Shown here: positions 2,815 through 18,149 of the stretch, piece by piece
How positions within the stretch are numbered: the first letter of the stretch is position 1
Layout of the letters: every line of letters begins with the position of its first letter
Assembly: GCA_937924475.1 (NCBI GenBank)
Contig: CALDSV010000062.1
Location: forward strand, 1-34,631
Direction of reading: 5' to 3'
Source: an uncultured bacterium
GTDB taxonomy: Bacteria; Nitrospirota; Thermodesulfovibrionia; Thermodesulfovibrionales; Thermodesulfovibrionaceae
DNA length: 34,631 nucleotides
Program-made: the position numbers and the translations under genes
The notes under the pieces: model-generated
Database searches by the model: none
Told to the model about the DNA's origin: nothing
Seen by the model: the letters and a program-made list of their open reading frames with translations, nothing else

Positions 2815-2816
2815 TT

Positions 2817-3071
2817 TTAATCCACTGAGTGATCAAATATTAGTATATCACCTGTTACTGGGCTACGATAAATGAGTTTTCTTGCTTTCCCATGAAGAGC
2901 ATGGGCAACTTTAAGATAAAGCCATATAGGTCCCTGACCCGTTAAAACTATATCATTCCCCAATTCAGCTAAGGATAGTGCTTTGTGAATGTATTCCTTT
3001 AATTTTGATAGCTTAGCAGTTTCAGTATCTTTATAAAGTTCTGATATGTCAATTATTATTTCCTTAGGCAT
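2817..3071 (-). CDS. csx3: Csx3 (Crn3-type ring nuclease)
   Basis: Small (84 aa) CRISPR-associated protein of the Csx3 family. It carries the family signature GPIWLYLKVAHALHG (residues 47-61), followed by YRSPVTGDILIFDHS. Csx3 proteins have been shown to degrade cyclic tetra-adenylate (hence Crn3) and also have reported RNA deadenylase activity. Here it should dampen the second-messenger signal made by Csm1/Cas10 that activates Csx1. H60 is the conserved histidine in the ALHG motif. The ATG overlaps the end of csm5 by 8 bases, so it is translated as part of the interference operon. It is stand-alone, without the kinase-like fusion seen in some Csx3 proteins. Confidence 0.9.
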   Translation of the reverse strand: MPKEIIIDISELYKDTETAKLSKLKEYIHKALSLAELGNDIVLTGQGPIWLYLKVAHALHGKARKLIYRSPVTGDILIFDHSVD

Positions 3072-4203
3072 TTACCACCTCAAGTATTGCCCATCCAAAG
3101 GGCAACAGAGAACTATTGCTTTTAGGCTTTGGCGTATCAGAGGCAAACCAGATTGTTGTGGCATGATCAAGCTCTAAAGGAGGTTTATTTTTGCCCTGCT
3201 TTATTCTAATTTTTCTATTCCCTTCAATAGTAACTGCTTCAGCACCTGAGTGTTTTCCAATTCGGATAACAAAACATGATTTTTTTAGTTTTTCTCTGAA
3301 TTTTGCATTACAAGTTAAAACTGCATGATGTCTTATTCCAAATACCTCAAGTAATATTTTTGTCTCTTCGTTCAAAATCTTAGCATAAAATTTATGAATT
3401 GAAAGAAGAAGGTTTTCAGCAGTTATGGGCTTTAATATATTTGCCCTTTCATCAGGAATATTTATGTCTATTGTTCCTTCAAAGATTGTCTCAGGTTGAA
3501 TAGTTTCAAATATGGTGTAAATGCCAGATTTATCAACTATAGTTGAAGTATTGTTCTTTTCTTTTTTTCTATTTACTGCGTAAACAATCTTTCTTTTTAC
3601 ATTTCCAAGGGGGAACAAATCTGATACTTTGATCATCCTGAAAGGATCTGTTGTCATTTTCTCTCTGCCTTCTGTTCTGTCAAGTAGTTTTGTTTCTAAA
3701 TCATCTGCCTTGCCTGGCCAGTTTGTGATATTTTTAACATTAGCAAGAGCGCTTAGATAAGCTGTTCTTATAGAACCTTTGAGGGATGAACCAGGAATAT
3801 AGGGTAGTTTTGTTAGTGGGTTGTAAGCAGTTTTTTCAATTTTAAACTGATTTATAATCAATTTTCTATCAAAGGATGATAATGTGAGTATTTTTTTGTA
3901 ATGTTCCACTAAATACTGAGGGATATCAATTTCTATACCTTTTTGTTTGAAACTGTTTTTATTGATGAACTTCATTATCATTAAAAGGTTATCTCCAGAG
4001 CAGACTCTTAAGAAATCTTGCCTTTGTCTATCATTCAAAGAATTTACAAAATCAAAAGGATCAAACTCTATTAGTTTATTTTTATTTTCGTCTATAACAA
4101 AACTTGTTGGTTCATAAACATCATCACATCCAATATGAATAGGAGTAAGCACATGTAGCCTAACTTTTAATTTTGTATTATGAGTATCTCTTTGTGAGTT
4201 CAT
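3064..4203 (-). CDS. csm5: Csm5, type III-A RAMP subunit
   Basis: Subunit of the Csm effector complex that caps the backbone at the 3' end of the crRNA. The 379-aa protein starts with a RAMP strand (LKVRLHVLTPIHIGCDD) and has the family motif IPGSSLKGSIRTAYLSAL near residue 136, the glycine-rich loop shared with Csm3. The start ATG overlaps the csm4 stop in an ATGA arrangement, so the two are translationally coupled. Position between csm4 and csx3 and the length fit Csm5. I see no frameshift or missing segment. Confidence 0.93.
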   Translation of the reverse strand: MNSQRDTHNTKLKVRLHVLTPIHIGCDDVYEPTSFVIDENKNKLIEFDPFDFVNSLNDRQRQDFLRVCSGDNLLMIMKFINKNSFKQKGIEIDIPQYLVEHYKKILTLSSFDRKLIINQFKIEKTAYNPLTKLPYIPGSSLKGSIRTAYLSALANVKNITNWPGKADDLETKLLDRTEGREKMTTDPFRMIKVSDLFPLGNVKRKIVYAVNRKKEKNNTSTIVDKSGIYTIFETIQPETIFEGTIDINIPDERANILKPITAENLLLSIHKFYAKILNEETKILLEVFGIRHHAVLTCNAKFREKLKKSCFVIRIGKHSGAEAVTIEGNRKIRIKQGKNKPPLELDHATTIWFASDTPKPKSNSSLLPFGWAILEVVNA

Positions 4204-5234
4204 TCTTCTACCTCCACCTTTACAGGTAAATACAACGAATATCCTTGTGCTAATGCTTTTGGTTCAACTTTTGATATACCTGAGATAGCCATTCCTATAT
4301 AGGGTTTCTCAAATACAGAGCCATCCTTTACAAGAAATACAGCTCCTTCATCAGCCATTATTATTGGATTTTTAAATGGATTACTTGATCTTGCTAATAT
4401 ATCCCCATGTCTGCCAAACCTTATAAAGGGTGAAAAATATGCTTTTCTAAAAAAATCTCTCTCTGGAACGCATGGTGAAAGTGTATAGCAAGCATTTGGG
4501 TTATCAGCTCCGAGAGATTTCAAATTAAGCTGTTTGTATCCCTTTATCTCAAACTTACCAAGCCCTGTTGAAGCATCTTTACCAAATCCTGTCATGCCAA
4601 TTCTTTTTAATGCCTCTGTGACCATTTCAATTGTTATATCATCCCTTACCATAACAAAGACAACCAGTTCAACAATTTCATTGAAAACATTTTGAGAAAC
4701 AGAAAAGGGAGCAAATCTCTCCTCACCTGTTGTTCCAGTTAAGCGGTTGATTGTGTTGTGGGGTTGTTGATAATCTTTTATAAGACAGACAGAGTTGCTC
4801 TTTAGTCCAAATAGCTTATTAGTTTTAATGTGTGCTGTTTTTAGAAGCTCATTTAATAACTCATCTTCAGTGAGGTAAAATTCATCTACCTTCAATGATT
4901 GTATTTTGGTATTGCTTTTTAGTTTCATCCAGATTTTTTTCTTAAGGTCTTTGCGTTTTTTTATAGTTTCCCTATTGCTCAGATCAAGATTAAAAAGCAT
5001 ATCAAGAGGTGTATCTGGCCTCTTCAGAATATAATAATCTTTCATTTTTATAAAAGCGCTTGAAACTACCATAAAGGGGTTTACTGCATAATCTGAAAGA
5101 AGCTCAGTTATACTTTTGTCAAAAAGCCTATCATCGTAGACTGCTTGCCAGCATATGTGTCCAAAGAGTGTATCACCTTTAAGAGGAGTACCAAATCCTG
5201 AAATAGGTTTTATGACAATTTCATATGTTTTCAT
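4200..5234 (-). CDS. csm4: Csm4, type III-A RAMP subunit
   Basis: Subunit that binds the 5' handle of the crRNA and contacts Csm1. The 344-aa protein begins with a RAMP strand and the conserved segment FGTPLKGDTLFGHICWQAV (residues 14-32), and has the glycine-rich loop GFGKDASTGLGKFEI in the middle, both typical of Csm4. The ATG is 11 bases after the csm3 stop, with only a weak Shine-Dalgarno (AGTAGGT). The 3' end overlaps csm5. Confidence 0.94.
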   Translation of the reverse strand: MKTYEIVIKPISGFGTPLKGDTLFGHICWQAVYDDRLFDKSITELLSDYAVNPFMVVSSAFIKMKDYYILKRPDTPLDMLFNLDLSNRETIKKRKDLKKKIWMKLKSNTKIQSLKVDEFYLTEDELLNELLKTAHIKTNKLFGLKSNSVCLIKDYQQPHNTINRLTGTTGEERFAPFSVSQNVFNEIVELVVFVMVRDDITIEMVTEALKRIGMTGFGKDASTGLGKFEIKGYKQLNLKSLGADNPNACYTLSPCVPERDFFRKAYFSPFIRFGRHGDILARSSNPFKNPIIMADEGAVFLVKDGSVFEKPYIGMAISGISKVEPKALAQGYSLYLPVKVEVEE

Positions 5235-5245
5235 TTTTTTACCTA

Positions 5246-5944
5246 CTAAAAAGGATTTAAATTTTCAAACTTCTTTTGAATCTCAGGATCAGAGAAAACA
5301 AATTTAATTCTTCCATATCCTCTACTTCCATTGCCACCAAGAGTATCCATCTCAAGAAGTTTAAGTCCCTGAAGAAGTATATCAAGGAGTTCTTTATCGG
5401 TTTCTTCAAGTATTTTAAAGCTAATGTGAAAGTTAAACTCTGCACCAGCAGGTACTCTCTCAGTATGCCTGGGATTTTCTGCTGTTCCTCTTATTCTGTT
5501 GATACTGTTTTCTACCTTAGTCTCTGTAAAAGACCAGCGATTTTCTATTGCTTTATTTTTCCATTCACTGTCTAAATAACAATCAGAAAAAGACACTCTT
5601 GTGGGACCCAAGCTAAAGCCTTCTTTTGTGTCTGCACCACTTGAGCCGAATATTTTAAGAATTGCCTCTGCCTGCTTTCTTTCATCTTCTTTAAGTTTTG
5701 ATAGAATTTTTGGGGATAAAACATCTCCATTTGTGTCTTTCATTAAACCACTTTTAATTTCCAGTAATGAACGAACTTTACCTTTTAATGACGAGCCAGG
5801 AATATATGGTTCAAGTGTATGAGGATGCTTAATTACAGGATTGTCAGTACCACCTATATGCATTTCCATATTGCCTGAGCCAATATGTAATCCACTTTTA
5901 AGAATTATCTTACCCCTAAGTTCTTTGATTTCCATAAGTTTCAT
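5246..5944 (-). CDS. csm3: Csm3, backbone RAMP subunit and target-RNA nuclease
   Basis: Repeated backbone subunit of the Csm complex that binds crRNA and cuts complementary target RNA every six bases. The 232-aa protein contains SGLHIGSGN and then HIGGTDNPVIKHP. D34 in this motif aligns with the catalytic aspartate of characterised Csm3 proteins, so RNA cleavage should be intact. It also has IPGSSLKGKVRSLLE and a C-terminal glycine-rich GGNGSRGYGRI. AGGAGG precedes the ATG. An internal ATG at codon 4 is an alternative start. Confidence 0.96.
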   Translation of the reverse strand: MKLMEIKELRGKIILKSGLHIGSGNMEMHIGGTDNPVIKHPHTLEPYIPGSSLKGKVRSLLEIKSGLMKDTNGDVLSPKILSKLKEDERKQAEAILKIFGSSGADTKEGFSLGPTRVSFSDCYLDSEWKNKAIENRWSFTETKVENSINRIRGTAENPRHTERVPAGAEFNFHISFKILEETDKELLDILLQGLKLLEMDTLGGNGSRGYGRIKFVFSDPEIQKKFENLNPF

Positions 5945-5960
5945 TGCCTTTTACCTCCTT

Positions 5961-6356
5961 TTATTCAGATGGTCCATAGAGTCTATAATAACCCATGAAA
6001 GCCTCAAAAAAGCTTACAAATACATCAAAATCATCTTTGTCTTTAATTTGATTGAGAGCCTCTGAAATAAAATTCTTGAAGTTCTTTGAAATTAATTCTC
6101 TTCCTTCTGCATAGGCTATTTTAGCATTTAACATTTTAATGTAAGGTAACATCTTTTCAAAATCATCAGGCTTACTTTGCAAACGAGAGGCAAAATTAAG
6201 AACTTCATCATAAAACTTTCTTATCTGACTTCTTTTGTCAAGCCGTCTTACTTTTTTAGCATTATCACCAATTTCTTTAGCTAATTTTTCCGCTACAGAT
6301 GAAAATAGTTCAGGCTCGATAACTTTGTTAGCTTTGTCTTTCCAAAATTTGATCAT
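5961..6356 (-). CDS. csm2: Csm2, small subunit
   Basis: Small, almost all-helical subunit (131 aa) of the Csm complex that lines the crRNA-target duplex. The N-terminus (VAEKLAKEIGD) and the segment VRRLDKRSQIRKFYDEVL followed by LPYIKMLNAKIAYAEGR match the Csm2 pattern of a basic, tyrosine-containing helical bundle. An AGGAGG lies inside the end of csm1 and the ATG is two bases past the csm1 stop. The order csm1-csm2-csm3 supports the call. Confidence 0.93.
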   Translation of the reverse strand: MIKFWKDKANKVIEPELFSSVAEKLAKEIGDNAKKVRRLDKRSQIRKFYDEVLNFASRLQSKPDDFEKMLPYIKMLNAKIAYAEGRELISKNFKNFISEALNQIKDKDDFDVFVSFFEAFMGYYRLYGPSE

Positions 6357-6358
6357 TT

Positions 6359-9001
6359 CTAACCTCCTAATTTTCTATTGTTATAAATTACTTGCCAAAG
6401 AGGTATCCTTAATTTCCCACTGTATGATTGAAGCCATTCACTAAGTTTAATTACCTCATTAATTAAACTTTGCTTTTCCTCTTTTGTTAATTTTGCTCCA
6501 ATGTTTCTAATCACTGTATAGTAAAAAATTGATCTCCATTTTAAACACTCCATCTCCTCAATAAAGAAATCGCCTTTGCTTTTTAATATCATCTCTTCCT
6601 GCTTTCTCATCTCAATGAACTCGTTAAGCCTATAAAGCATGGCAGTATTTATTTTCTCACTGCTAAGCCATCTTTCAAGAGTAATTCTTATCCTTTCAAG
6701 TTCATAAAACTCATGCCATTTAGCAGTTTCGCCAAAAATAGTTATACTGTCTCTGCCGCCAGATTTAGAGGCATCAATTGCTTCTTCTGAAGCTTCAGCA
6801 AATGTTAAAACTGGTGTTGATGGTTTGTGTATAGTAATTCCCGCTGATATTGTTATATCCTCATTTTTACAAACATAATCTTTGAATGATTTATTTAAAA
6901 AACCTGCAAATTCTATAATGCTGTTCCATGGACCTATTAAAAATAAGTCATCACCTCCAGCAAATACTGTATAAATATTCTTAAAACGAGCATCAGTTTT
7001 AAGCTTAAAAGGTAAAAATATGGTGAAATAATTATTAAGCTGTCTGCTAAGTGTTGCAAGTCGGGAAAAAGTGAATCTATCTTGTTTTATTCCAAAACCA
7101 AAAAGTAATCCGAGGTTGTCTACATCAGCTTTTAGAACTCCCAAGGCTTCAACTCCCTTGAATTTTCCATTCTCAGAGCTATTAAGAGACATTTTCGCAA
7201 TATAAGAGAATGTCTTTGGAATATCTTTTTGCAAGCTATCAAATAATTCCTCTTTAATTTTGTCTGATTTTTTACCAGCTAAGATTTTGTTGATGGCATC
7301 TTCTGTAAGATCCTCTTCTTCAAACTTTGGAATATAGCCATTGATAAATTTAGCTGCGATGTCCTTAGCTATTTCCCCATTTTCAGAGATTCCTATATTC
7401 CAAAATTTATAGACTTTAGCCTCTTTAGCAAGTTTTCTTAATTTACCTTCCACAAAAACAATTTGATATTTCCCAAAAATAGGCTCAAGAATCTTCTCTT
7501 CATCGTAAATTTCAGCATCCTTTTGTAGTATTGCAATCTGTTCTTTTTTTACAAGATTTTCTCCAATAAAAATTTGGTCATGACAAATTTTGCACGAATA
7601 TTCATCTTTAACTTTTGCATCCTTTCTTGCTGGTCTCCTACCACAAAAAGGACACACTCCAAGTTCACTATCAAAGGAATCCAAATATGTGCTAACACAA
7701 CCACTATATCTGGATAAATCAAATTTTGAATATTTCCTTTTATTTACCTCCTTCAAAAGGCTTTGATATAAACTTAGGAAATTCCCTTTTACAAAATCAT
7801 CCGGAGAGGCTTCCTTTATTGAAAATCCCATTGATGCTTGTCCAAAGAAATTTCTTATCAGCCAATCGTTAATTTTTTCCTCTATTTCCTTAACTATTCT
7901 TTTTGCCTTATTAGTGTTATAGCCAAGCACTGTAAACTTTCCTGCAGCATTAAGAACAATAGATGTTACTGGTAAATTGAGTTCTCTGCAAAGCATATCA
8001 GCTGCAAGTTCTGTCAAAAGTGATACATAGAAAGAGCGGCCTCTTAAAAGTTTTGCAGATGCTTTGCCAGTACTTCCTCCCTCAGTAAATATAAAATCCT
8101 GAATTCCGTAAAAATCTCCGCTTATAATTAAAAATTTTTTAATTTCATAATCTTGAATTGCTTCCACTGTCAAGGTGTTTGTTTCTTCATGATATTTATA
8201 AAGAGCCGAGGCAATGGCAGATGTTGTTCTACTGTGATCATAAAGAGAGACATCAGGAACAACATTACCAACAGTAGCTGCAGGAATGTGAGAGCAAAAA
8301 ATCATAAATAAACTGTCAAGATGCTCAAACCACAGAGGAATTTGTTCTTTATGACTTAATTTTTCAAGAGCATTTATGAAATTTGAAAAAAGCTGACGAT
8401 ACTCCTCAGAAGCTTTTTCAATGTCAATGTGTTCTGTATTTTCAACAAATTTAGGAAAGATGCTCTCTGGAGATAGTTCCTTGAGAGGATAACGATATTT
8501 ATAATCATCAAGGCTGTCCCTTTTCAATTTACCATCAATGGAAAGCCCTTCAAAAATTGTAAGTAAACGAGTCTTTTTATAGTCTTTCAAAGGGATCCCT
8601 TTATCATCGGACTGAGTATTGTATTTTTCAAATTCTGTCCGATCAAAACCACTACTTATCCTATCGGCAATAGCAATTAACCACTGAAGAGGAGTCTGTG
8701 GTTTATGATGACTTGATGCAAGGTTTACAAAAGAATCGCCAAGCCCCCATCCATCTTTGTTAAACTCCTTAGGTAGAAGCTTTTCAAAACTATCTATAAA
8801 TGCAGCAGTATAAACTGCATGCAGATGAGTGTATCTACCTTTATAAGAAGGCAGGTATAATCCCATGTTATTATTTAAAAATTCTTTATTTGGGAAAAAT
8901 CCTACTGCATCAATTCCTGGAGTTCCAACTGCTCTTTCTGCAAACTTTCCTATATCATGAAAATATGCTGCAAGAGCTATTTTATAGACAGTTTCATCCA
9001 T
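6359..9001 (-). CDS. csm1: Csm1 (Cas10), type III-A signature subunit
   Basis: Large subunit (880 aa) of the Csm complex. On target-RNA binding the family cuts single-stranded DNA with its HD domain and makes cyclic oligoadenylates with its Palm domain. The N-terminal HD motif is present (YFHDIGKF, H15 and D16). A zinc module follows with paired cysteines (C450/C453 and C470/C473). The polymerase/cyclase signature is intact: AGGDDLFLIGPW with G682, G683, D684 and D685. Both activities therefore look functional. It is the first gene of the minus-strand operon, with AGGAGG at 9013-9008 before the ATG. A divergent promoter and a palindromic operator lie upstream. Confidence 0.97.
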   Translation of the reverse strand: MDETVYKIALAAYFHDIGKFAERAVGTPGIDAVGFFPNKEFLNNNMGLYLPSYKGRYTHLHAVYTAAFIDSFEKLLPKEFNKDGWGLGDSFVNLASSHHKPQTPLQWLIAIADRISSGFDRTEFEKYNTQSDDKGIPLKDYKKTRLLTIFEGLSIDGKLKRDSLDDYKYRYPLKELSPESIFPKFVENTEHIDIEKASEEYRQLFSNFINALEKLSHKEQIPLWFEHLDSLFMIFCSHIPAATVGNVVPDVSLYDHSRTTSAIASALYKYHEETNTLTVEAIQDYEIKKFLIISGDFYGIQDFIFTEGGSTGKASAKLLRGRSFYVSLLTELAADMLCRELNLPVTSIVLNAAGKFTVLGYNTNKAKRIVKEIEEKINDWLIRNFFGQASMGFSIKEASPDDFVKGNFLSLYQSLLKEVNKRKYSKFDLSRYSGCVSTYLDSFDSELGVCPFCGRRPARKDAKVKDEYSCKICHDQIFIGENLVKKEQIAILQKDAEIYDEEKILEPIFGKYQIVFVEGKLRKLAKEAKVYKFWNIGISENGEIAKDIAAKFINGYIPKFEEEDLTEDAINKILAGKKSDKIKEELFDSLQKDIPKTFSYIAKMSLNSSENGKFKGVEALGVLKADVDNLGLLFGFGIKQDRFTFSRLATLSRQLNNYFTIFLPFKLKTDARFKNIYTVFAGGDDLFLIGPWNSIIEFAGFLNKSFKDYVCKNEDITISAGITIHKPSTPVLTFAEASEEAIDASKSGGRDSITIFGETAKWHEFYELERIRITLERWLSSEKINTAMLYRLNEFIEMRKQEEMILKSKGDFFIEEMECLKWRSIFYYTVIRNIGAKLTKEEKQSLINEVIKLSEWLQSYSGKLRIPLWQVIYNNRKLGG

Positions 9002-9031: not shown

Positions 9032-9060
9032 ATTTTATAGAAACTTATTCTCAAAATCAA
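9032..9060 (-). promoter_or_regulatory. Putative promoter of the csm operon
   Basis: On the minus strand, TTGATT (9060-9055) is followed after exactly 17 bases by TAAAAT (9037-9032). This would start transcription near 9025 and give a 24-base 5' UTR containing the csm1 Shine-Dalgarno. The -35 box lies 4 bases from the palindrome at 9065-9090. Confidence 0.6.
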
Positions 9061-9064
9061 TCAT

Positions 9065-9090
9065 TTTGTAATATTGCAAAATATTGCAAA
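9065..9090. promoter_or_regulatory. 26-bp palindromic operator, site 1 (csm / ring nuclease intergenic)
   Basis: TTTGTAATATT, four bases, then AATATTGCAAA. The two 11-base halves are inverted repeats with one mismatch. The site lies between the divergent csm operon and the ring nuclease gene. It is centred about 52 bp upstream of the predicted csm start and overlaps the predicted core promoter of the plus-strand gene. The same motif recurs at 11542-11567 and, less perfectly, at 14260-14285. Confidence 0.7.
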
Positions 9091-9110
9091 TTATGATAAA
9101 TTTTTACTCA

Positions 9111-10184
9111 ATGAAAAACATCCTACTCTGTGTAATAGGTGTTACGCCACAGATAATTACTGAAACCATTTATGCTCTTCATAAAAAATCGCCTCCCGTT
9201 AATATTGATGAAATATTTGTAATTACCACTTCCAAGGGGGCTCAGACTATAAAGGAAATGATTCTTGAAAAAGGAGTCATTACTCAACTAACTAAGGACT
9301 ATGGCATGCCTCCAATAGCTTTTACTGAGGAGAATATAATCTTGATTAAATCCGAAAAAGAAGCCCTTGCAGATATTCGTTCTACCACTGACAATGAATT
9401 AACAGGTGATCTTATTACTGAAACAGTAAGAAAGTTAGCTCAAGATGAAAATACGACACTTCACTGTTCTATTGCTGGTGGAAGAAAAACAATGGGTTAC
9501 TATCTTGGAAGCGCTCTTCAGCTTTATGGAAGACCGCAAGACAAACTATATCATGTTTTGGTTAGTGAGGAATTTGAAAGTAATCCTTATTTTTTCTATC
9601 CACCTCCAGAACCTAAAACACTACGGTTAAAGAGAAAAGACGGAAGCGTGATAGAGCTTTCAACTGATAAGGCAAAAATAGAACTGGCTGAACTACCTTT
9701 TATAAGATTGAGAGATTTTGTAGACTTCAATAATAGGTCCTTTCGTAGTCTTGTCTCTTTCACACAAAAAGAAATTGACTCCTCTTTAAAGATTCCACCT
9801 CTTGTAATAAATCCAAGGGAAAATAAAATTCTAATTGGTGAGCATAAAATTAGATTAACAGAAAAAATGTTTTCAACATATTGTGTCTTTGCTTACCTGA
9901 AAAAAAATAAGTGCAGAGATACGAAAAAAATTAATTGCAAAAACTGCTATGATTGCTTTTTACCAATGAAAAGCGACAAAGATAAGAATAGTCTTTTAGA
10001 GACTTTCAAAAGGGATGAACAATATCTAAGAAGCCTTATCTCAAAAATAAATTCTACAATAAAAACTCACCTTCGTGATGAAAAATTAATACCTTACTAC
10101 ATCATTCATGGAAAGAGAAAATATGGAGAGACAGCTTATGGTTTAATGATTGACAGAGCAAAGATTATCATAAAAAAGGAGTAG
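9111..10184 (+). CDS. SSO2081-like (NE0113 family) CRISPR ring nuclease with C-terminal winged-helix-like domain
   Basis: The N-terminal half (about residues 1-180) has the NE0113 family signatures: ILLCVIGVTPQIITETIYAL at the start, then DIRSTTDNELTGD, then SIAGGRKTMGYYLGSAL and GRPQDKLYHVLVS. This Rossmann-like domain is the one named after SSO2081 (Crn1), which opens cyclic tetra-adenylate, so a signal-off role is likely. The C-terminal half (EHKIRLTEKMFSTYCVFAYL and following) looks like a winged helix with a cysteine cluster (KCRDTKKINCKNCYDC) that may bind zinc; DNA binding is my inference. I chose ATG 9111 because family homology begins there. TTG 9084 would lie inside the operator. 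There is no Shine-Dalgarno; a TATGAT at 9092-9097 implies a leaderless or nearly leaderless mRNA. Confidence 0.82.
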   Translation: MKNILLCVIGVTPQIITETIYALHKKSPPVNIDEIFVITTSKGAQTIKEMILEKGVITQLTKDYGMPPIAFTEENIILIKSEKEALADIRSTTDNELTGDLITETVRKLAQDENTTLHCSIAGGRKTMGYYLGSALQLYGRPQDKLYHVLVSEEFESNPYFFYPPPEPKTLRLKRKDGSVIELSTDKAKIELAELPFIRLRDFVDFNNRSFRSLVSFTQKEIDSSLKIPPLVINPRENKILIGEHKIRLTEKMFSTYCVFAYLKKNKCRDTKKINCKNCYDCFLPMKSDKDKNSLLETFKRDEQYLRSLISKINSTIKTHLRDEKLIPYYIIHGKRKYGETAYGLMIDRAKIIIKKE

Positions 10185-10187
10185 GTG

Positions 10188-11534
10188 ATGAAATACATTT
10201 ATCAAATAGGAAGACTTGAAAAAAATATGAAACCTTTAAAGTTCCAAATCAACTCAACAGAGGTTGATACTTACCTAAGCTCATTAGCTCTAAAGAGTTC
10301 TCACAGAAATGTAAAAGTAATTTTAATCTATCCTGTAAGTCTTCCTTTTAACAAGGCGCTTATTGCTGAAGATTCAACTATTGAGCAAAAATTTAAAAAA
10401 AAGATAAGGGAGATACTTGAGGGTTCTAAGGAAGATTATTTTAAAAATCCTCTGGAATTTTTCAAGTTGCATCCCCATACTTATTTGGCTGATGACTTTT
10501 TATTAGTGCATTCTTTCGGTGAGTTTTCTGGGCAAAACTTTGAAGGTAACTTTGATGACATAGTTTTAGAAATATTCATAGACATTGTACAGAGGAGTCT
10601 CACTGAATCCTTTACAGAACTTTATATTGACATTTCAAGTGGTCATAACATTTACATTACTGCTATGCTTGAAGCTGTAAGAAACTTTGTAGTATTTCAT
10701 AGTTTATCAAATTGGATAAATCAAGAACTAAAGGTAAAACTTTACTTTAGTGATCCTATAATAGGCTCCACAAAAAATAATTATGCTATCCACAAAGATT
10801 ATGAACTAAAATACAAGATCTTTTTCTCATCACCAATTGATGAAGATGCCGATATAAAAAATTATGCTCTTTCAAGAAAAATTGTTGGAACAGATAAAGG
10901 AATTAGGAAATTAAAAAATAAACTTCAAAAACTTTTTGAAGAGTTTTATTTAGCCTATTCAGCATTAAAAAACAACACACCTCTTGTTATTTATTCTTAT
11001 TCCTTTTCAAAAGAAGAGGAAATTATTGAAATTATTAAAACCCTTATTGATCAGCTAAAAGAGAAACTTTTCCACAATTGGGAAAAAAGCGCTGGTATTA
11101 ATAAAAATGACTATCTTAAAGTATTCTTTGTTTTAGCTCTTTACATAGGTATCTTAAGAGTACTTTCAGCCTATGAGATTAAGTTGAAAGATGAAGTTTC
11201 CCTTGATGAAATTGAACAAAAGTTTACAAAGATTTATGAACATTTCAATCTCTTGTTAAACATTGAGATTTTAAGCCATGAAATCTCTAATCTAAAACGC
11301 ATGATAAATAATGCAGCAAATATTTCAGAGGGAAATTGGAACCTCATATCCCATGTTATTTCTGGTGAAGGTAATTTTCATAGAAGAAATTTTCTTGCCC
11401 ATGCTGGCTTTGAGAGAACTGTAACAGAATTTATGAAAAAACAACACGAAATATATGTAAGATACAAAAAAGAAGAACTTAAAAAAGTCTTTAAAGATGG
11501 TCACATGAAAAACTCTCAAATTATTCTCAGATAA
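10188..11534 (+). CDS. csx1: Csx1, CARF-HEPN ribonuclease activated by cyclic oligoadenylate
   Basis: Stand-alone RNase of the type III antiviral response. The CARF half carries the Csx1 segment ELYIDISSGHNIYITAMLEA (about residues 145-164), and the C-terminal HEPN domain has the catalytic R-x4-H motif RNFLAHAGF (R400, H405). It should bind the cyclic oligoadenylate made by Csm1 and cut RNA non-specifically. It takes the place of Csm6, which I do not find. AGGAG at 10177-10181 favours ATG 10188 over the overlapping GTG at 10185. It starts 3 bases after the ring nuclease gene, so effector and off-switch are co-expressed. Length (448 aa) is normal for the family. Confidence 0.9.
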   Translation: MKYIYQIGRLEKNMKPLKFQINSTEVDTYLSSLALKSSHRNVKVILIYPVSLPFNKALIAEDSTIEQKFKKKIREILEGSKEDYFKNPLEFFKLHPHTYLADDFLLVHSFGEFSGQNFEGNFDDIVLEIFIDIVQRSLTESFTELYIDISSGHNIYITAMLEAVRNFVVFHSLSNWINQELKVKLYFSDPIIGSTKNNYAIHKDYELKYKIFFSSPIDEDADIKNYALSRKIVGTDKGIRKLKNKLQKLFEEFYLAYSALKNNTPLVIYSYSFSKEEEIIEIIKTLIDQLKEKLFHNWEKSAGINKNDYLKVFFVLALYIGILRVLSAYEIKLKDEVSLDEIEQKFTKIYEHFNLLLNIEILSHEISNLKRMINNAANISEGNWNLISHVISGEGNFHRRNFLAHAGFERTVTEFMKKQHEIYVRYKKEELKKVFKDGHMKNSQIILR

Positions 11535-11541
11535 CCCTCAC

Positions 11542-11567
11542 TTTGTAATATTTCGCAACATTACAAA
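11542..11567. promoter_or_regulatory. 26-bp palindromic operator, site 2 (upstream of cas2-cas1)
   Basis: TTTGTAATATT, four bases (TCGC), then AACATTACAAA. The halves are inverted repeats with a single mismatch, and the left half is identical to that of site 1. It ends 4 bases before the putative -35 box of the adaptation operon and is centred about 52 bp before the predicted start, the same geometry as at the csm promoter. Confidence 0.72.
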
Positions 11568-11571
11568 ATAA

Positions 11572-11599
11572 TTTACTCAAAAGAATAATCGAATAAAAT
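11572..11599 (+). promoter_or_regulatory. Putative promoter of the cas2-cas1-cas1-cas2 operon
   Basis: TTTACT at 11572-11577, 16 bases, then TAAAAT at 11594-11599. Transcription would begin at about 11606, which is the A of the cas2 ATG, so the mRNA may be leaderless. That agrees with the lack of a Shine-Dalgarno before cas2. Confidence 0.5.
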
Positions 11600-11605
11600 A
11601 ATCTT

Positions 11606-11884
11606 ATGAGAACTCTTTATATCATAGCCTATGACATAACAGACTTAAGAAGGCTTGCGCAGGTGAGATATTTTCTTAAAGGCTACAGCATCGGGGGACA
11701 AAAGTCAGTTTATGAATGTTTCCTTAAAAAAGAGGAACTCAAGTTCATAATAAGCAAACTTAAAAGGTTAATAAATCCCTTTGAAGACAGAGTTCATATT
11801 TTCTCCATTGATGGCCGAAGTGAAATTATAACCTTAGGCATAGCAGTAAAGCCTCAGTATCCTGATTACTTCTACCTTGGCTAA
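11606..11884 (+). CDS. cas2: Cas2 (first copy)
   Basis: Structural partner of Cas1 in the spacer integrase. The 92-aa ferredoxin-like protein begins RTLYIIAYDITDLRRL, with the conserved metal-ligand aspartate D10, and has the usual length. The next gene starts directly after its stop codon, so Cas2 and Cas1 should be made together. It differs clearly from the second Cas2 at 13610, so the two are not a recent duplication. Confidence 0.95.
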   Translation: MRTLYIIAYDITDLRRLAQVRYFLKGYSIGGQKSVYECFLKKEELKFIISKLKRLINPFEDRVHIFSIDGRSEIITLGIAVKPQYPDYFYLG

Positions 11885-12820
11885 ATGGGCACGGTTTTTA
11901 TCGATAGAAAAGATATAGAGCTAAAAGTTGATGGTAATTCAATAGCTTTTTACAGCAATGGCAAAAGACAAGGGGGAATTCCTCTTACACCATTAAAGAG
12001 AGTTGTAATCGTTGGAAATGTAAAGTTAGATACTTCATTTATTTATAAATTAGTAAGAAATGGTATATCAATTGTTTTTTTCACTGGAAGATTGAAATAC
12101 TGCGGAATAATTAATGGCCCCCTTCATAACAATGGATACTTAAGAGTGAAACAATATGAGAAATCAATTAGAAACTTTGCCCAAGTGATATCAAAAGAAT
12201 TGATTTCGGAAAAAATTCTCTCACAAAAGCAATTTATTATTGAGATGAAACAGATTAATCCAACTCTATCTATGGATATAAACAAAGCTATTGAAACTGT
12301 GGATAAAACTCTAAATACTCTAACAGAAACCTTTCCGTCGATTGAATCTTTAAGAGGCATAGAAGGCTCTATTTCATCAATTTATTTTTCGTTATACTGC
12401 AAACTTTTTCCGCCATCACTTAAATTTTACAAAAGAGTTAAAAGACCACCTACAGATCCAGTTAATGCCATGCTTTCATTTGTTTATACATTAATACATT
12501 ATGAAATAGTAAGAGAGATACAGCTAATAGGTTTAGATCCAACTATAGGTTTTTATCATCAATTTGAATATGGAAGAGAATCCCTCGCCTGTGACTTAGT
12601 AGAAAAATACAGAGTAAGTGTTGATAGATTTGTTTTTGAAATATTCAAAAATAGACACCTAAGTTCGAAAAACTTCACAAAAGACGAACAAACATCGGCA
12701 GTATATCTTGGAAAAGCTGGAAGGAAAAAGTTTTATTCTCTCTATGAAGAATGGGCTCAACAACAAAGAAGTCTCTGGAGAAAGGAGGTTGAAAAACTTG
12801 CCAGAAGAATACTTGAATAA
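11885..12820 (+). CDS. cas1: Cas1 (first copy, catalytic residues present)
   Basis: Integrase subunit that inserts new spacers next to the leader. The 311-aa protein has an N-terminal beta domain (VFIDRKDIELKVDG ... RVVIVGNVKLDT) and the helical catalytic domain. The three metal-binding positions are present: E160 in LRGIEGSISS, H225 in IGFYHQFEYG, and D237/E240 in SLACDLVEKYR. It should be active. The ATG abuts the cas2 stop. The 3' end overlaps the second cas1 by 23 bases. Confidence 0.96.
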   Translation: MGTVFIDRKDIELKVDGNSIAFYSNGKRQGGIPLTPLKRVVIVGNVKLDTSFIYKLVRNGISIVFFTGRLKYCGIINGPLHNNGYLRVKQYEKSIRNFAQVISKELISEKILSQKQFIIEMKQINPTLSMDINKAIETVDKTLNTLTETFPSIESLRGIEGSISSIYFSLYCKLFPPSLKFYKRVKRPPTDPVNAMLSFVYTLIHYEIVREIQLIGLDPTIGFYHQFEYGRESLACDLVEKYRVSVDRFVFEIFKNRHLSSKNFTKDEQTSAVYLGKAGRKKFYSLYEEWAQQQRSLWRKEVEKLARRILE

Positions 12821-13613
12821 AGATAAAAGAACTCTGTATCTCGTTGATAAAGGTAACGGGCTCCTAATGAGAAGGGACGGACCATCTGTATTGATAGAAA
12901 GAAGGAATAAAGCTCCTGTGAGAATTCCTGTAAACTATGTTGATAAAGTAATAATTTTAGGAAACATAGAGTTAGATTCATTCTCTCTTACCCTATTTTC
13001 ATCTCAACGTATTCCTGTATTGATAATTAATAGGGACAGAGAGTTTTCACTTATATTACCACCTAATAAAGACTTCCCAGATCACAGTAGGGAACAGAAG
13101 AGACTTTTAAGTTCATCAGCATTAATTGATAAATACAGATCCATGCTCTTAAGAAAAAGATTTGAGGAAGAAAGAAAGGTCATAAGAATTCTTTTTGATA
13201 AAATTTCAATCAATCTTCAAGATAGGTATCCTACAATCATAAATAAAATTAAACCTTCAGAGTTTCTATGGAATAAAGTCAAGGACATCACATCAAGTCT
13301 CATACAAATAAACATAATCGAGAGAATTATCTCTGCAAAACTCAATCCCCATTTGGGAATAATCAACAAGGCATGTAACTATGGTTTAGTTTATGATATT
13401 TATCATATTTTCGAACCAGAAGCAGACCTCCAAACAGCCAAATTTTTCTGCCTCGCAAAGTTAAAGAACGATTTTGCTGATAATCCGCAGATTTCACATG
13501 ACATCCTTGAAATTATTATAAATAACTTTGAAAAAAGACAAGCTGAGATTTCAAATTCAGTTGATATGGTAATTAATGAAATTCTTGAGATTATGAGGAT
13601 AATTCCGCCATGA
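12798..13613 (+). CDS. Cas1 paralogue, divergent and probably catalytically inactive
   Basis: The N-terminal half is plainly Cas1 (TLYLVDKGNGLLMRRDG ... VIILGNIELDSFSLTLFSSQ). The helical half is recognisable at LNPHLGIINKACNYGLVYDI, the region of the usual LxPxxGxxH and DLxE motifs. The catalytic histidine is replaced by N190, the last acid by H203 (D200 remains), and I see no counterpart of the glutamate in RGxEG. It is therefore probably a structural or regulatory Cas1. TTG 12798 is chosen as start because AAGGAGG lies ten bases before it inside the upstream cas1; a longer frame from 12708 overlaps cas1 by 113 bases and lacks homology. At 271 aa it is shorter than its neighbour. The stop overlaps the next cas2 (ATGA). 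Confidence 0.82.
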   Translation: MPEEYLNKDKRTLYLVDKGNGLLMRRDGPSVLIERRNKAPVRIPVNYVDKVIILGNIELDSFSLTLFSSQRIPVLIINRDREFSLILPPNKDFPDHSREQKRLLSSSALIDKYRSMLLRKRFEEERKVIRILFDKISINLQDRYPTIINKIKPSEFLWNKVKDITSSLIQINIIERIISAKLNPHLGIINKACNYGLVYDIYHIFEPEADLQTAKFFCLAKLKNDFADNPQISHDILEIIINNFEKRQAEISNSVDMVINEILEIMRIIPP

Positions 13614-13888
13614 AATCTCTATACCTTTTTTGTTATGACATATCTGACGAAAATAGATTAAATAAGATCTACAGATATATGAAAGGCAAAGGCATTCATT
13701 TACAATACTCTGTTTTTTATTGTGCATTAGATAAGAATCAACTTCATGAAATGATACAAGATATATCAAAAATAATTCATCCAAGATATGATGATGTTAG
13801 GATTTATTCACTATCAAAAGATAGTCTCGTGGAAGTTTTAGGAGTAGGAGACCGAATCCCTGAAGGTGTTGAGATTTATTTTGATTAG
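13610..13888 (+). CDS. cas2: Cas2 (second copy)
   Basis: Second Cas2, 92 aa, beginning KSLYLFCYDISDENRL with the conserved aspartate D10. Its ATG overlaps the stop of the divergent Cas1, so it is coupled to that gene as the first Cas2 is to the active Cas1. The four genes make a mirror-like cassette (cas2, cas1, cas1, cas2). I see no terminator directly after it. Confidence 0.92.
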   Translation: MKSLYLFCYDISDENRLNKIYRYMKGKGIHLQYSVFYCALDKNQLHEMIQDISKIIHPRYDDVRIYSLSKDSLVEVLGVGDRIPEGVEIYFD

Positions 13889-13968
13889 TAAGATTTCAAT
13901 AATTATTGTCTTTGTAAGAGCTTCCTTACCTTTTTATGTCATTGGTAGTCCTTTCATATCTATTTCTG

Positions 13969-14194
13969 TCATTGCGAGCCCTTCCAAATAATGCCGTCAG
14001 ATTGCTTCGTGCACCTTGCGTTGCCCTCGCAATGACAGAGGGTGGGCGTCATTACGAGGAGCGTAAGCGACGAAGCAATCCCTCCGTCCACGCTTTTACT
14101 GTAAAAGCTTGCAATGAGATTGCTTCGGATGACTTCTTCACCCTCGCAATGACGGAAGGGATTGCCACGCAGTCCTTCGGACTGCTCGCAATGA
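13969..14194. repeat. Cluster of dispersed TCATTGCGAG-type intergenic repeats
   Basis: This stretch contains several direct and inverted copies of GTCATTGCGAG and of GCAATC-type partner arms, for example near 13969, 14031, 14049, 14141 and 14187. Similar repeats are common between genes in several thermophiles and delta-proteobacteria. A 112-codon open frame crosses it but reads only through the repeats and is not a gene. A degraded cluster lies at 16590-16775. Confidence 0.85.
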
Positions 14195-14259
14195 AAGAGA
14201 GGGAATTTGTATGGAGTCCTTATTGTTTAGTCCCTCCAAGGCAATTAAGAATACTGACA

Positions 14260-14285
14260 ATAGAAATATTGTGAAATATTACAAA
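14260..14285. promoter_or_regulatory. Operator-like palindrome, site 3 (upstream of two small ORFs)
   Basis: The right half is AATATTACAAA, a perfect inverse of the left half of sites 1 and 2. The left half (ATAGAAATATT) matches at 8 of 11 positions, with a four-base centre. AT-rich hexamers (AATAAT at 14312-14317) lie where a -10 would be if the geometry of the cas promoters is kept. It is weaker than the other two sites. Confidence 0.45.
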
Positions 14286-14381
14286 TAGTACAAAGAGAGA
14301 GATATTTAGGCAATAATAAAAATATATGCAATTAAAAAGCCTCCATAGGAGGACAAAAAGAGATGAAAGGAGGTGAGGTTA

Positions 14382-14555
14382 ATGCTTCCAGTAATCGCAG
14401 CCATAGCAGGACAAAAAGCAGCAGAGCTTATAGTGGCGTGTATAGTAGGAATAATAATTGGTGCAACAATCAAGGATGAAATTGATGCAAAGAAAGTTGA
14501 GGAGGTAAAAAGAGAGGTTGAGATACTTAGAAGGGAAATCAATAGAAGAAAGTAA
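14382..14555 (+). CDS. Small membrane protein with coiled-coil tail, unknown function
   Basis: I do not recognise the family. The 57-aa product has one hydrophobic segment (residues about 1-29, with VACIVGIIIGATI) followed by a charged, heptad-like helix (KKVEEVKREVEILRREINRRK). It would be a single-pass membrane protein with a cytosolic coiled coil, or an amphipathic oligomer. ATG 14382 is chosen because AAAGGAGGTGA ends about six bases before it; an in-frame GTG at 14373 lies inside that ribosome binding site. A second small gene follows after 45 bases with the same kind of ribosome binding site, and a terminator comes after that, so these form a two-gene operon. The putative cas-type operator lies upstream. 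Confidence 0.65.
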   Translation: MLPVIAAIAGQKAAELIVACIVGIIIGATIKDEIDAKKVEEVKREVEILRREINRRK

Positions 14556-14600
14556 TAAGAATATTTAAAGGAAATTCTTATCAAAAAAGGAGGTGATAAA

Positions 14601-14771
14601 ATGATGAGTATGAATACTAATGTAGAAAGCCGTACTCAAATTGATAAGTTGATTAATATTCAGGAGCTCATAACTATAATGATGGATATACTCCTTAGAG
14701 GTAAAACAGAAAGGAAAATAGAAGAAATAATGCAACTCATAAGGGAGATTAGAGATGAACTGGAAAGGTAA
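14601..14771 (+). CDS. Small helical protein of unknown function
   Basis: A 56-aa frame preceded by AAAAAAGGAGGTGATAAA, one of the best ribosome binding sites in the window. The product is predicted helical and soluble: an acidic N-terminus, then IQELITIMMDILLRGKTERK and a charged C-terminal helix (IEEIMQLIREIRDELER). Heptad spacing of isoleucine/leucine suggests a coiled coil that could pair with the tail of the upstream small membrane protein. No family recognised. It is followed within 8 bases by a strong terminator, which marks the end of a real transcription unit. Confidence 0.65.
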   Translation: MMSMNTNVESRTQIDKLINIQELITIMMDILLRGKTERKIEEIMQLIREIRDELER

Positions 14772-15350: not shown

Positions 15351-16388
15351 ATGCTTGACACCTTAGAACTTTTATATGAGTTAAGGGAAACCTTTGATGC
15401 TCGGCAGGCTGAAAGTCTTGCTCGGGTAATGGGGAAGATTTATAAAGAATTAGCAAATACTGTAACAAAGGTAGAATTTGAGGAATTAAGAAAAACAGTA
15501 GCTCAATTAGCTGATAATGTTAAAGAACTTGCTGAAGCACAAAAAAGGACAGAGAAAAGAATAAACGAGCTCGCTGAAGCTCAAAAAAGAACCGAGGAAA
15601 GACTAAACGAGCTTGCTGAAGCTCAAAAAAGAACAGAGGAGAGGCTTAATAGGCTTGAAGAAGTTGTAGAAAAGCTCGCTGAAGCACAAAAAAGAACCGA
15701 AGAAAGACTAAACGAGCTTGCTGAAGCTCAAAAAAGAACAGAGGAGAGGCTTAATAGGCTTGAAGAAGTTGTAGAAAAGCTCGCTGAAGCTCAAAAAAGA
15801 ACCGAGGAAAGAGTAAACGAGCTTGCTGAAGCTCAAAAAAGGACAGAGGAGAGGCTTAATAGGCTTGAAGAAGTTGTAGAAAAGCTCGCTGAAGCTCAAA
15901 AAAGAACCGAGGAAAGAGTAAACGAGCTTGCTGAAGCTCAAAAGAAGACAGAAGATGCTATCAAGAGACTGGTTGGTGAACTTGAGGAAGTCAAAGAACA
16001 AGTGGGAGGGCTATCACATACAGTGGGTTACACTCTTGAAAACGAAGCCTATAAGGCTTTGCCAGCTCTGCTTAAGAGAGATTACAATCTTGAAGTATTA
16101 GGAAAACTAAAGCGTGGTTATATAAAAGACAGCAAGGGCCAAGCAATAGAAGTAAACATAATAGGAGAGGCCAAAAGAAACGGAAAGAAAGTATTTATAG
16201 TTGGTGAAAGCAAGGTAAAGCTCTCTAAGAATGATGTAAGGCGATTCATAGAGAGAAGGATAAAGAGGCTTGAGCCAGTTTTAGGAGAACTTTTTCCTTT
16301 GATAGTCACTCATATGATATCAGAACCTGATGTAGAGGAGTTTGCAAAAGAAAAGGGTGTTGTGGTTTACTACTCCTACGATTTTTAA
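15351..16388 (+). CDS. Coiled-coil repeat protein with C-terminal PD-(D/E)XK-like (DUF3782-type) domain
   Basis: A 345-aa protein in three parts. The first 45 residues (LDTLELLYELRETFDARQAESLARVMGKIY) are like the start of other bacterial coiled-coil proteins of this type. Residues about 50-225 are a long coiled coil made of a 14-residue unit (LAEAQKRTEERLNE) alternating with RLEEVVEK. The last 120 residues contain AIEVNIIGEAKRNGKKVFIVGESKVK, which fits the acid ... ExK pattern of the PD-(D/E)XK nuclease fold, and then a segment ending in YYSYDF. Such proteins are common next to mobile and defence genes, but their substrates are unknown. ATG 15351 fits family starts better than TTG 15294. Confidence 0.75.
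   Translation: MLDTLELLYELRETFDARQAESLARVMGKIYKELANTVTKVEFEELRKTVAQLADNVKELAEAQKRTEKRINELAEAQKRTEERLNELAEAQKRTEERLNRLEEVVEKLAEAQKRTEERLNELAEAQKRTEERLNRLEEVVEKLAEAQKRTEERVNELAEAQKRTEERLNRLEEVVEKLAEAQKRTEERVNELAEAQKKTEDAIKRLVGELEEVKEQVGGLSHTVGYTLENEAYKALPALLKRDYNLEVLGKLKRGYIKDSKGQAIEVNIIGEAKRNGKKVFIVGESKVKLSKNDVRRFIERRIKRLEPVLGELFPLIVTHMISEPDVEEFAKEKGVVVYYSYDF
15641..15955 (+). repeat. Three 105-bp in-frame tandem repeats inside the coiled-coil gene
   Basis: The sequence starting GAGGCTTAATAGGCTTGAAG recurs at 15641, 15746 and 15851, exactly 105 bases (35 codons) apart, with only a few third-base changes. Shorter 42-base units lie upstream. The near identity at the DNA level indicates recent expansion or gene conversion, and copy number probably varies between strains. 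Confidence 0.9.
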
Positions 16389-16837: not shown

Positions 16838-17251
16838 GTGTCTTCTCATATTGAGAGATTTTACCAAGAAAAATTAAACATTGCCTCTCCATTCAGATAT
16901 CAGATAGAAACATGGTCCATCTTTGAAGAGATAAAATTTCCCTTATTGTTAAGAGCTCCCACTGGCTCTGGAAAAACCGAAGCTGTGGTTGCTCCTTTTT
17001 TGTATCAGTTTACAATAAAGAAATTCCAAATAGCACCAAGAATGATTTATGTTTTACCAATGAGAGTTTTGGTTAATAGCATTGCCGAGCGAATTAAATC
17101 TTATGCTCAAAAAATATCACCCATTATTTCAGTTTTAGCTCATCACGGAGAACGGCCTGATGCTATAGAAAAGAAACAGGAACAGAATTTCCCTTTGATC
17201 CTTGTTGCAGAGACGCTTCCATTAAAACAAGGATTGAAAAGGTATGGGTAA
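16838..17251 (+). pseudogene. Truncated Cas3-type CRISPR helicase fragment
   Basis: The frame begins with GTG after GAGGA and encodes the first part of a superfamily 2 helicase. Walker A is intact (RAPTGSGKTEAVVAPFL, about residues 39-55), followed by motif Ia-like IYVLPMRVLVNSIAERI and VLAHHGERPDA, the pattern of Cas3 proteins. A normal Cas3 helicase is several hundred residues longer, with DEAH and C-terminal helicase motifs. Here homology stops after residue 123 (LILVA), where the sequence becomes a CRISPR-like repeat whose translation (ETLPLKQGLKRYG) fills the last codons. No other type I genes are present, so this is a dead remnant of a lost type I system. Confidence 0.72.
17204..17240 (+). 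CRISPR. Single CRISPR repeat remnant of a second family, fused to the cas3 fragment
   Basis: A 37-base segment starting GTTGCAGAGACGCTTCC and ending AAGGATTGAAAA has the length, the starting GTTGC and the terminal ATTGAAA(C) tag of type I/III repeats. Its last base is A rather than the usual C. It is unrelated to the main array's repeat. A partial copy (CTTCCATTGAAACAAGGA, 17 of 18 identical) is at 17998-18015. There is no second full copy in the window, so the call rests on repeat style. Confidence 0.55.
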
Positions 17252-18005: not shown

Positions 18006-18149
18006 GAAACAAGGAAGGTATTGCGACCATAATTAGGCTTAAGGCGATAGGCTAAAGGCTTAAGAAAAAGATATACGGGTAAATTTCTTCGGTGTATACA
18101 TAAGTCAAAACTTCAGCCTTAAGCCTAAGACCTCCCTCATTCAGAGGGA
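18006..18149 (-). repeat. Palindromic element (copy B) with CRISPR-repeat-like flanks
   Basis: On the minus strand this reads TTCCCTCTGAATGAGGGAGG, then TCTTAGGCTTAAGGCTGAAG, an AT-rich middle, CCTATCGCCTTAAGCC, and then GGTCGCAAT followed by ACCTTCCTTGTTTC. The core is homologous to the insert at 62-175. Both flanks also match the main array's repeat: the left flank resembles CCCTTTTGAATGAGG and the right flank begins GTCGCAAT and ends CTTGTTTC. Both copies share a 4-base insertion between GAATGAG and GTCTT. It is therefore a relocated piece of array or a mobile unit carrying repeat ends. Confidence 0.7.

Follow-up and report, generated by a model that had tools for sequence, protein, structure and literature searches.

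A shared palindrome, probably an operator, at three promoters of a type III-A CRISPR locus, and a CARF protein as its candidate regulator

The window considered here, a stretch of 34,631 nucleotides (contig CALDSV010000062.1 of assembly GCA_937924475.1) from an uncultured bacterium of the Thermodesulfovibrionaceae, carries a type III-A CRISPR system: an array at about 22-1590, a csm operon that runs leftward and includes csx3 and cas6, two rightward CARF genes, the genes cas2-cas1-cas1b-cas2b and two small genes. The csm operon begins with cas10 (csm1; 6359-9001, minus strand; GGDD motif seen by eye); csm2, csm3, csm4, csm5, csx3 and cas6 make up the remainder (1813-6356, minus strand), with cas6, csx3, csm5 and csm4 named by family scan, and csm2 and csm3 by order, sequence and tblastn of relatives. 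On the plus strand lie the gene at 9111-10184, which encodes a CARF protein (NE0113 / TIGR02584) with a C-terminal four-cysteine part modelled as an OmpR/PhoB-like winged helix; csx1 (10185-11534), for a CARF-HEPN ribonuclease; the adaptation operon (11606-13888); and sp1 (57 aa, N-terminal half hydrophobic) and sp2 (56 aa), a small-protein pair of no assigned function (14382-14771). One palindrome stands before the csm, adaptation and small-protein operons alike. The view developed below is that the 9111-10184 protein is likely to activate the type III system it belongs to, under the control of cyclic oligoadenylate and by way of these palindromes.

The palindrome follows the pattern TTTGTAATATT-N4-AATATTACAAA, with one mismatch at 9065-9090 (operator 1, which separates the CARF-winged-helix gene from the divergently oriented csm operon and has 10 bp between half-site centres), one at 11542-11567 (operator 2, upstream of cas2-cas1-cas1b-cas2b) and three at 14260-14285 (operator 3, weaker, upstream of sp1-sp2). 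At up to three mismatches the window holds no match beyond these, and 100 dinucleotide-preserving shuffles of the window gave none. A matrix built from six sites, the window's own three among them (the ‘window-type’ matrix), scores the three at 33.4, 33.3 and 27.4; the runner-up on the plus strand, within csx1, reaches 14.7. An earlier, sequence-only reading of this DNA had reported two strong palindromes and a weaker third, with no copy in the housekeeping half of the window. Pattern match and shuffles confirm the former observation, pattern search and matrix the latter, and the palindromes are probably operators.

By eye, each site is centred about 52 bp from a predicted transcription start. 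The candidate csm promoter (9032-9060, minus strand) reads TTGATT-17-TAAAAT, with its -35 box at 9060-9055 and its -10 box at 9037-9032; the candidate adaptation promoter (11572-11606, plus strand) reads TTTACT-16-TAAAAT, with boxes at 11572-11577 and 11594-11599, and its predicted start is the ATG of cas2 itself, at 11606; the boxes of the sp1-sp2 promoter are poor (all by eye). The spacing of about 52 bp to the ‘predicted start’ claimed in the sequence-only reading holds, then, for the predicted transcription start at all three promoters and fails for the start codon except at cas2: the centre lies 76 bp from the start codon of cas10 and about 110 bp from that of sp1 (ATG 14382). Activators more commonly bind in such a position, next to the -35 box on its upstream side and clear of the core promoter. 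Operator 1 also overlaps, by eye, the presumed promoter of the regulator gene, which in the window is probably held back by its own product.

Nor is the motif scattered over the source genome (1.87 Mb in 80 contigs, 95% complete), where at up to three mismatches there is a single other match, C28:14663-14688, within the 3' end of an open frame (12941-14707 of that contig). In a first set of 41 genomes, one (G013) has two one-mismatch sites, at the promoters corresponding to operators 1 and 2; the remaining matches, with three mismatches and in seven genomes, lie away from the loci studied. G015 has a site related to operator 1. Elsewhere in the genus a diverged form, GAAAYRTTTC-N-GAAAYRTTTC, is built from a pair of self-complementary 10-mers with a spacing of 11 bp. 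By eye, this form stands before cas2 in five further genomes (G014, G012, G008, G011 and G009), cas10 in G014, G002, G010, G012 and G009, and a second CARF-gene copy of G013; in G002 and G010 the operator is not directly before cas2 and stands instead, at a greater distance upstream, before an SbcD-like gene. A second, ‘11-bp-type’ matrix was made from 11 genus sites, picked by eye from upstream regions (that of G011 set by hand); at a score of at least 13 it finds no operator in the stretches of C9 and C23, two other contigs of the source genome, that match the Cas10 palm family. The second CARF-gene copy of G013 (G013:C46:7300-8445; L062) contains an internal TGA, yet 11-bp-type operators remain beside it; the intact copy, on C10, has a 10-bp-type operator.

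Across 395 genomes of the phylum, the near-exact motif (at most one mismatch) occurs in 30, the gene (called at E 1e-30 or better) in 57 and both in 22 (Fisher p 1.5e-14); the reversed motif, as control, occurs in 2 of the 395. In two of the eight motif genomes without a gene call, G064 and G172, the gene is there but truncated by the end of a contig. Where the Cas10 match is strong (63 genomes, E 1e-15 or better), 15 of the 40 genomes that have the gene carry the near-exact motif, against 2 of the 23 that do not (p 0.018), and the latter two are again G064 and G172.

The association extends well outside the genus. Five hundred stretches of the genome collection encode a relative of the 9111-10184 protein, and the best 80 of these 500 loci were fetched; they come from Nitrospirae, anammox bacteria, Deltaproteobacteria, Aminicenantes, Nitrospinota, Deferribacteres and others, with one Archaeoglobi bin that may be mis-binned. 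Five of them (L065, L066, L073, L076 and L139) belong to the training genus or to genomes used already and were set aside. In the remaining 75, the 11-bp-type matrix finds a site scoring at least 15 in 64 and at least 20 in 49; the sites total 92, against 1.7 per simulated set (three first-order Markov replicates). They lie 15-300 bp upstream of a CARF-gene match in 35 cases, of cas2 in 13, of cas10 in 10 and of sp1 in 1, and the other 33 precede something else or nothing recognised. Type III loci in which the gene was not found (22 loci in 21 genomes of the phylum, 282 kb) gave one match, at the threshold itself. By and large the operator occurs where the gene occurs and is missing where the gene is missing, with 6 of the 30 motif genomes unexplained by the gene; conservation in relatives' cas promoters is found upstream of cas2 and cas10, in the genus and beyond. 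Three of the 10 plasmid records among the relatives listed were examined (A. vinosum, V. gigantis and R. marinus): by eye their C-termini lack the four-cysteine motif, and no operator was found.

Spacing to the start codon is a further regularity, counted from 88 (CARF gene) and 45 (cas2) tblastn starts, with operon-internal genes, repeated matches and genus loci included. Measured from the operator centre, an in-frame start codon falls at exactly 51 bp in 21 of 38 promoters with the motif for the CARF gene (at 52 bp in 3 more) and in 9 of 22 for cas2 (at 52 bp in 4 more); at cas10 (16 of 42 starts with the motif) start codons are more distant, mostly at 65-90 bp. Thirty-one promoters with 51-bp spacing yield the consensus operator-TTTTTCTTGA-spacer-TATAAT-like box-ATG, which is no test of the spacing, as the promoters were selected for it. 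The consensus predicts leaderless mRNAs and an operator that ends just before the -35 box; in the window, the adaptation mRNA would be leaderless, with transcription predicted to start at the cas2 ATG. In many relatives the same CARF gene instead has its operator at the activator position (51 bp), so that self-amplification is likelier there; the window, G013 and G015 have it in the gap from which the csm operon and the regulator gene diverge, a placement that fits self-limitation.

The candidate regulator has 357 residues, and its relative in G013 is 79% identical to it. Its N-terminal 205 residues correspond to full members of the NE0113 family (TIGR02584, 255.9 bits against a cut-off of 80.65; PF09623, Cas_NE0113, 170.8 against 23). 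Invariant in 68 of 68 aligned sequences are GGRKTM, a motif relevant to the putative ring nuclease activity, and Cys 268, 276, 279 and 282 with Lys 312 (alignment A2 excludes 10 of 77 tabulated relatives for stops, frame breaks or unread bases, with L066, L139 and L143 not tabulated; alignment A3 excludes L136). AlphaFold2 models have a pLDDT of 90.6 (full) and 89.2 (C-terminal part). With the full model, Foldseek finds the CARF domains of Cad1 and of Crn1-type ring nucleases, and DNA-bound RpaA at rank 21; with the C-terminal part, PDB ranks 1-31 are all OmpR/PhoB-type DNA-binding domains, at a best TM-score by target of 0.70 and a probability of up to 0.99. The CARF domain is supported by sequence, the winged helix that follows it by the model and a weak fold match; such an arrangement would be the Csa3-type architecture, in a type III-A rather than a type I-A locus, and the protein is not filed as Csa3. 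The label ‘ring nuclease’ given in the sequence-only reading stands as regards a CARF domain of the NE0113 family and appears incomplete, the C-terminal part being modelled as a DNA-binding domain. Scans of the other CRISPR proteins of the window gave no DNA-binding regulator domain above cut-off. On its model, the CARF protein is the candidate for the dedicated regulator postulated there, and that interpretation, with joint control of three operons, appears largely right.

Operators also stand at places other than cas promoters. In 8 of 29 repeat-bearing stretches (L078, L105, L110, L124, L127, L128, L145 and L157), found with a detector that also flags non-CRISPR repeats, the operator centre lies 91-95 bp from the nearest repeat, as it does by eye in L061 (94 bp). 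Six further near-repeat sites, at other distances, were not counted as leader sites, among them L149 at 87 bp, a second one of L128 at 88 bp on the other side, L083 at 26 bp, L051 at 336 bp and a second one of L157 at 345 bp.

The small-protein pair recurs in L067, from another family of the same order, with 40% and 32% identity to sp1 and sp2. There the operator centre precedes sp1 by 98 bp, and the CARF gene is close by, as is what by eye is a second CARF-like gene; 21 kb of this locus gave no match to cas10, cas6, cas1 or cas2. Among the queries tested, the CARF gene, the small-protein pair and the operator are all that L067 has in common with the window. This recurrence raises the weak third site of the window from suggestive to probable as a genuine operator. 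A strong sp1 match is found, among 176 genomes of the order, only in the window's genome and in G022, apparently the genome of L067 since the contig coordinates agree; two further matches, at E of about 0.008, fall in frames of 268 and 686 aa.

Other genes preceded by the operator in relatives include a Cmr1-like RAMP (L129, L147 and L148), TraT-like lipoproteins (L051, L077 and L080), DUF2130 proteins (L088, L104 and L140), a Cas3-like helicase (L164) and an SbcD-like gene (L053 6416-7579; L055 5672-6835), where the operator lies 93-95 bp upstream; in G002 and G010 this last gene precedes the adaptation genes. Pfam scans covered L053, L147, L077, L088, L140 and L164, and the others were named by similarity seen by eye; ‘SbcD’ and ‘Cmr1’ are the names used here for the metallophosphatase and RAMP matches. 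Small or secreted proteins of no assigned function also follow the operator (L074 1586-2119, L069 2065-2664, L107 9206-9577 and L132 7298-7705); a Pfam scan of those of L074 and L107 gave nothing useful. An SbcD-like gene preceded by the operator recalls Csa3a of Sulfolobus, which couples adaptation with DNA repair genes [PMC7480081].

The mechanism proposed would run as follows. Phage RNA would lead Cas10 to make cyclic oligoadenylate, as Cas10 proteins with GGDD do; the CARF dimer would bind it, as CARF domains do; the winged helices would then occupy the two half-sites, which are separated by roughly one turn of the DNA helix and immediately precede the -35 box. A distance of 11 bp between half-sites suits OmpR/PhoB-type domains. 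The csm, cas2-cas1-cas1b-cas2b and sp1-sp2 operons would be activated together, while in the window site 1, lying over the regulator's own presumed promoter, would probably hold the regulator gene back. The response would end as the ligand is cleaved, by the CARF domain itself and by Csx3 (Crn3), a ring nuclease [PMC12409355]. In its fullest form this makes one polypeptide sensor, output and timer: switched on by cyclic oligoadenylate when phage RNA appears, it would induce interference and the acquisition of spacers, and in some relatives the CRISPR array and SbcCD as well, before turning itself off by destroying its ligand. That fuller version is put forward tentatively, at somewhat less than even chances. 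What points to the protein as the binder is the conjunction of sites beyond chance, their near-uniqueness in the genome, their association with the gene, their fixed spacing and the modelled winged helix; that it binds the operator, that the ligand is cyclic oligoadenylate, that binding activates and that the CARF domain cleaves the ligand are each inferred.

A number of observations weigh against this account. No site at threshold is found in 11 of the 75 out-of-genus loci with the gene, and one of the tested loci (L125) has the same site and flanking sequence as a member of the training set, for a stricter count of 63 of 74. The near-exact motif reaches only the 15 of 40 strong-Cas10 genomes with the gene given above. 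The window form, like that of G013 and G015, has 10 bp between half-sites rather than the 11 bp of the diverged genus form, and no operator was seen in the leader of the window's own array (1587-1812). Pfam offers no family for residues 227-357 up to E 0.5, and the fold matches of the C-terminal part are weak (E 0.03-0.4, none at or below 0.001). Six of the 30 motif genomes have no trace of the gene: in five, the 4-19 kb retrieved around the motif contain nothing that matches a cas gene of the window, and the sixth (G348) has cas genes beside the motif. Across 54 loci, operator divergence correlates with winged-helix divergence at a Mantel r of 0.150 and with CARF-domain divergence at 0.151; co-divergence of operator and winged helix, being weak and no stronger than for the CARF domain, was dropped as support. 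Finally, one Csa3 is described as binding its promoter independently of cA4 [PMC8844856].

Some of these points would suit a different protein, encoded elsewhere, as the binder, with the CARF gene a frequent passenger of the regulon. Association is not binding, the correlation just given is weak, and in G348, which has the motif beside cas genes, no CARF gene was found; in G012 and G009, moreover, the CARF gene is preceded by another gene of CARF type, whose product seems by eye to end in a helix-turn-helix-like tail. However, that further gene is not found in the window, the operator is missing from the 22 type III loci without the CARF gene save for the one borderline match, and L067 and others have operator and CARF gene with no cas10, cas1, cas2 or cas6 matches nearby; a passenger role is accordingly improbable. 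Less improbable, though still unlikely, is that the same protein acts with the opposite sign, repressing the csm, adaptation and small-protein promoters at rest until cyclic oligoadenylate releases it. The overlap of site 1 with the presumed promoter of the regulator gene would suit a repressor, and so would Csa3b of Sulfolobus, which represses adaptation genes, tighter with a ligand analogue, yet activates cmr genes [PMC7480081]; at many CARF-gene and cas2 promoters, however, the operator ends upstream of the -35 box, clear of the core promoter. That the palindromes are not operators at all, and represent chance AT-rich repeats or remnants of mobile elements, might be argued from site 3, since by eye there is repetitive DNA (about 13930-14210) some 50 bp away from it. 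The shuffles without a match speak against this, as do the fixed spacings to start codons and CRISPR-array repeats and the 92 out-of-genus sites, none of which reaches deeper than 60 bp into sequence that matches a cas gene of the window; in viral contigs neither a relative of the CARF gene nor an exact copy of the operator followed by TTTT was found. We regard it as very improbable.

The window shows some other features. The cas1b gene (12792-13613) encodes a shortened Cas1 paralogue that lacks the block with the catalytic glutamate (RG-E-G), as do all 6 of 6 cas1b products when aligned with five of cas1; the order cas2-cas1-cas1b-cas2b also occurs in other phyla, and the two together suggest an adaptation complex containing an inactive Cas1 subunit. 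An inverted repeat of 112 nt, 86% complementary, has its arms 18 kb apart, at 77-188 (the array edge) and 18015-18126, the latter adjoining a Cas3-like fragment (16838-17251) that by eye resembles L164 8319. The gene at 15354-16388 contains tandem 21/42-bp repeats and encodes repeated AEAQKRTEER coiled-coil units; in G013 a similar repeat follows cas2b.

A gene that is widespread in type III systems, and annotated as a ring nuclease, looks like a regulator with a readable operator and regulon. The question whether type III systems respond to target RNA by acquiring spacers and transcribing the array can now be put to a direct test; if they do, these would possess RNA-triggered, induced memory formation, spread over several phyla. 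The operator might also serve as a tag for new defence genes, such as sp1-sp2 and, in relatives, those for the TraT-like, DUF2130 and Cmr1-like proteins and the SbcD-like nuclease.

The candidate can be compared with several known systems. With OmpR/PhoB-type regulators (PhoB, RpaA, CosR) it shares the C-terminal fold as modelled, and the PhoB box, too, lies upstream of -35 and has a spacing of about 11 bp between its two half-sites; unlike them, it has no receiver domain and no Pfam match there, a four-cysteine insertion and a CARF sensor. Cad1 (a CARF-adenosine deaminase) and Crn1 are the best structural neighbours of its CARF domain, with distant sequence similarity to Cad1, but these are effectors or stand-alone enzymes without a DNA-binding domain. 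Closest in architecture are Csa3a and Csa3b of Sulfolobus type I-A systems, alike in CARF domain and, on the model, winged helix; Csa3 is the case known from experiment, described as controlling adaptation and DNA repair genes as well as arrays, and as linked to cyclic oligoadenylate [PMC7480081, PMC9704534]. Csa3 sits in type I-A loci, whereas the presumed targets of the candidate are type III loci; the candidate further differs by a CARF domain of the NE0113 family, the invariant four-cysteine motif and the OmpR/PhoB-like fold, and Csa3 of S. solfataricus is without ring nuclease activity [PMC8844856]. The NE0113 family (PF09623 / TIGR02584, annotated ‘CRISPR-associated ring nuclease Csm6’) includes the candidate's N-terminal 205 residues, and a role in regulating transcription was predicted for it, as for Csa3, by Makarova et al. 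in 2014 [PMC4012209]; what is new beyond that prediction is the C-terminal domain, the operator and the regulon. A literature search, with subscription papers largely outside its reach, found no report of the operator or regulon, and a 2025 census of ring nucleases limited candidates to 250 aa [PMC12409355], so that proteins of 357 aa would fall outside it. CARF also governs transcription in RtcR, an activator of RNA repair [PMC7790460, PMC9650030]; RtcR differs in being a sigma54-dependent AAA+ activator of rtc genes with a divergent CARF domain [PMC4012209]. A 2025 classification, for its part, places transcriptional regulators among the effectors activated by cyclic oligoadenylate [PMC12669027].

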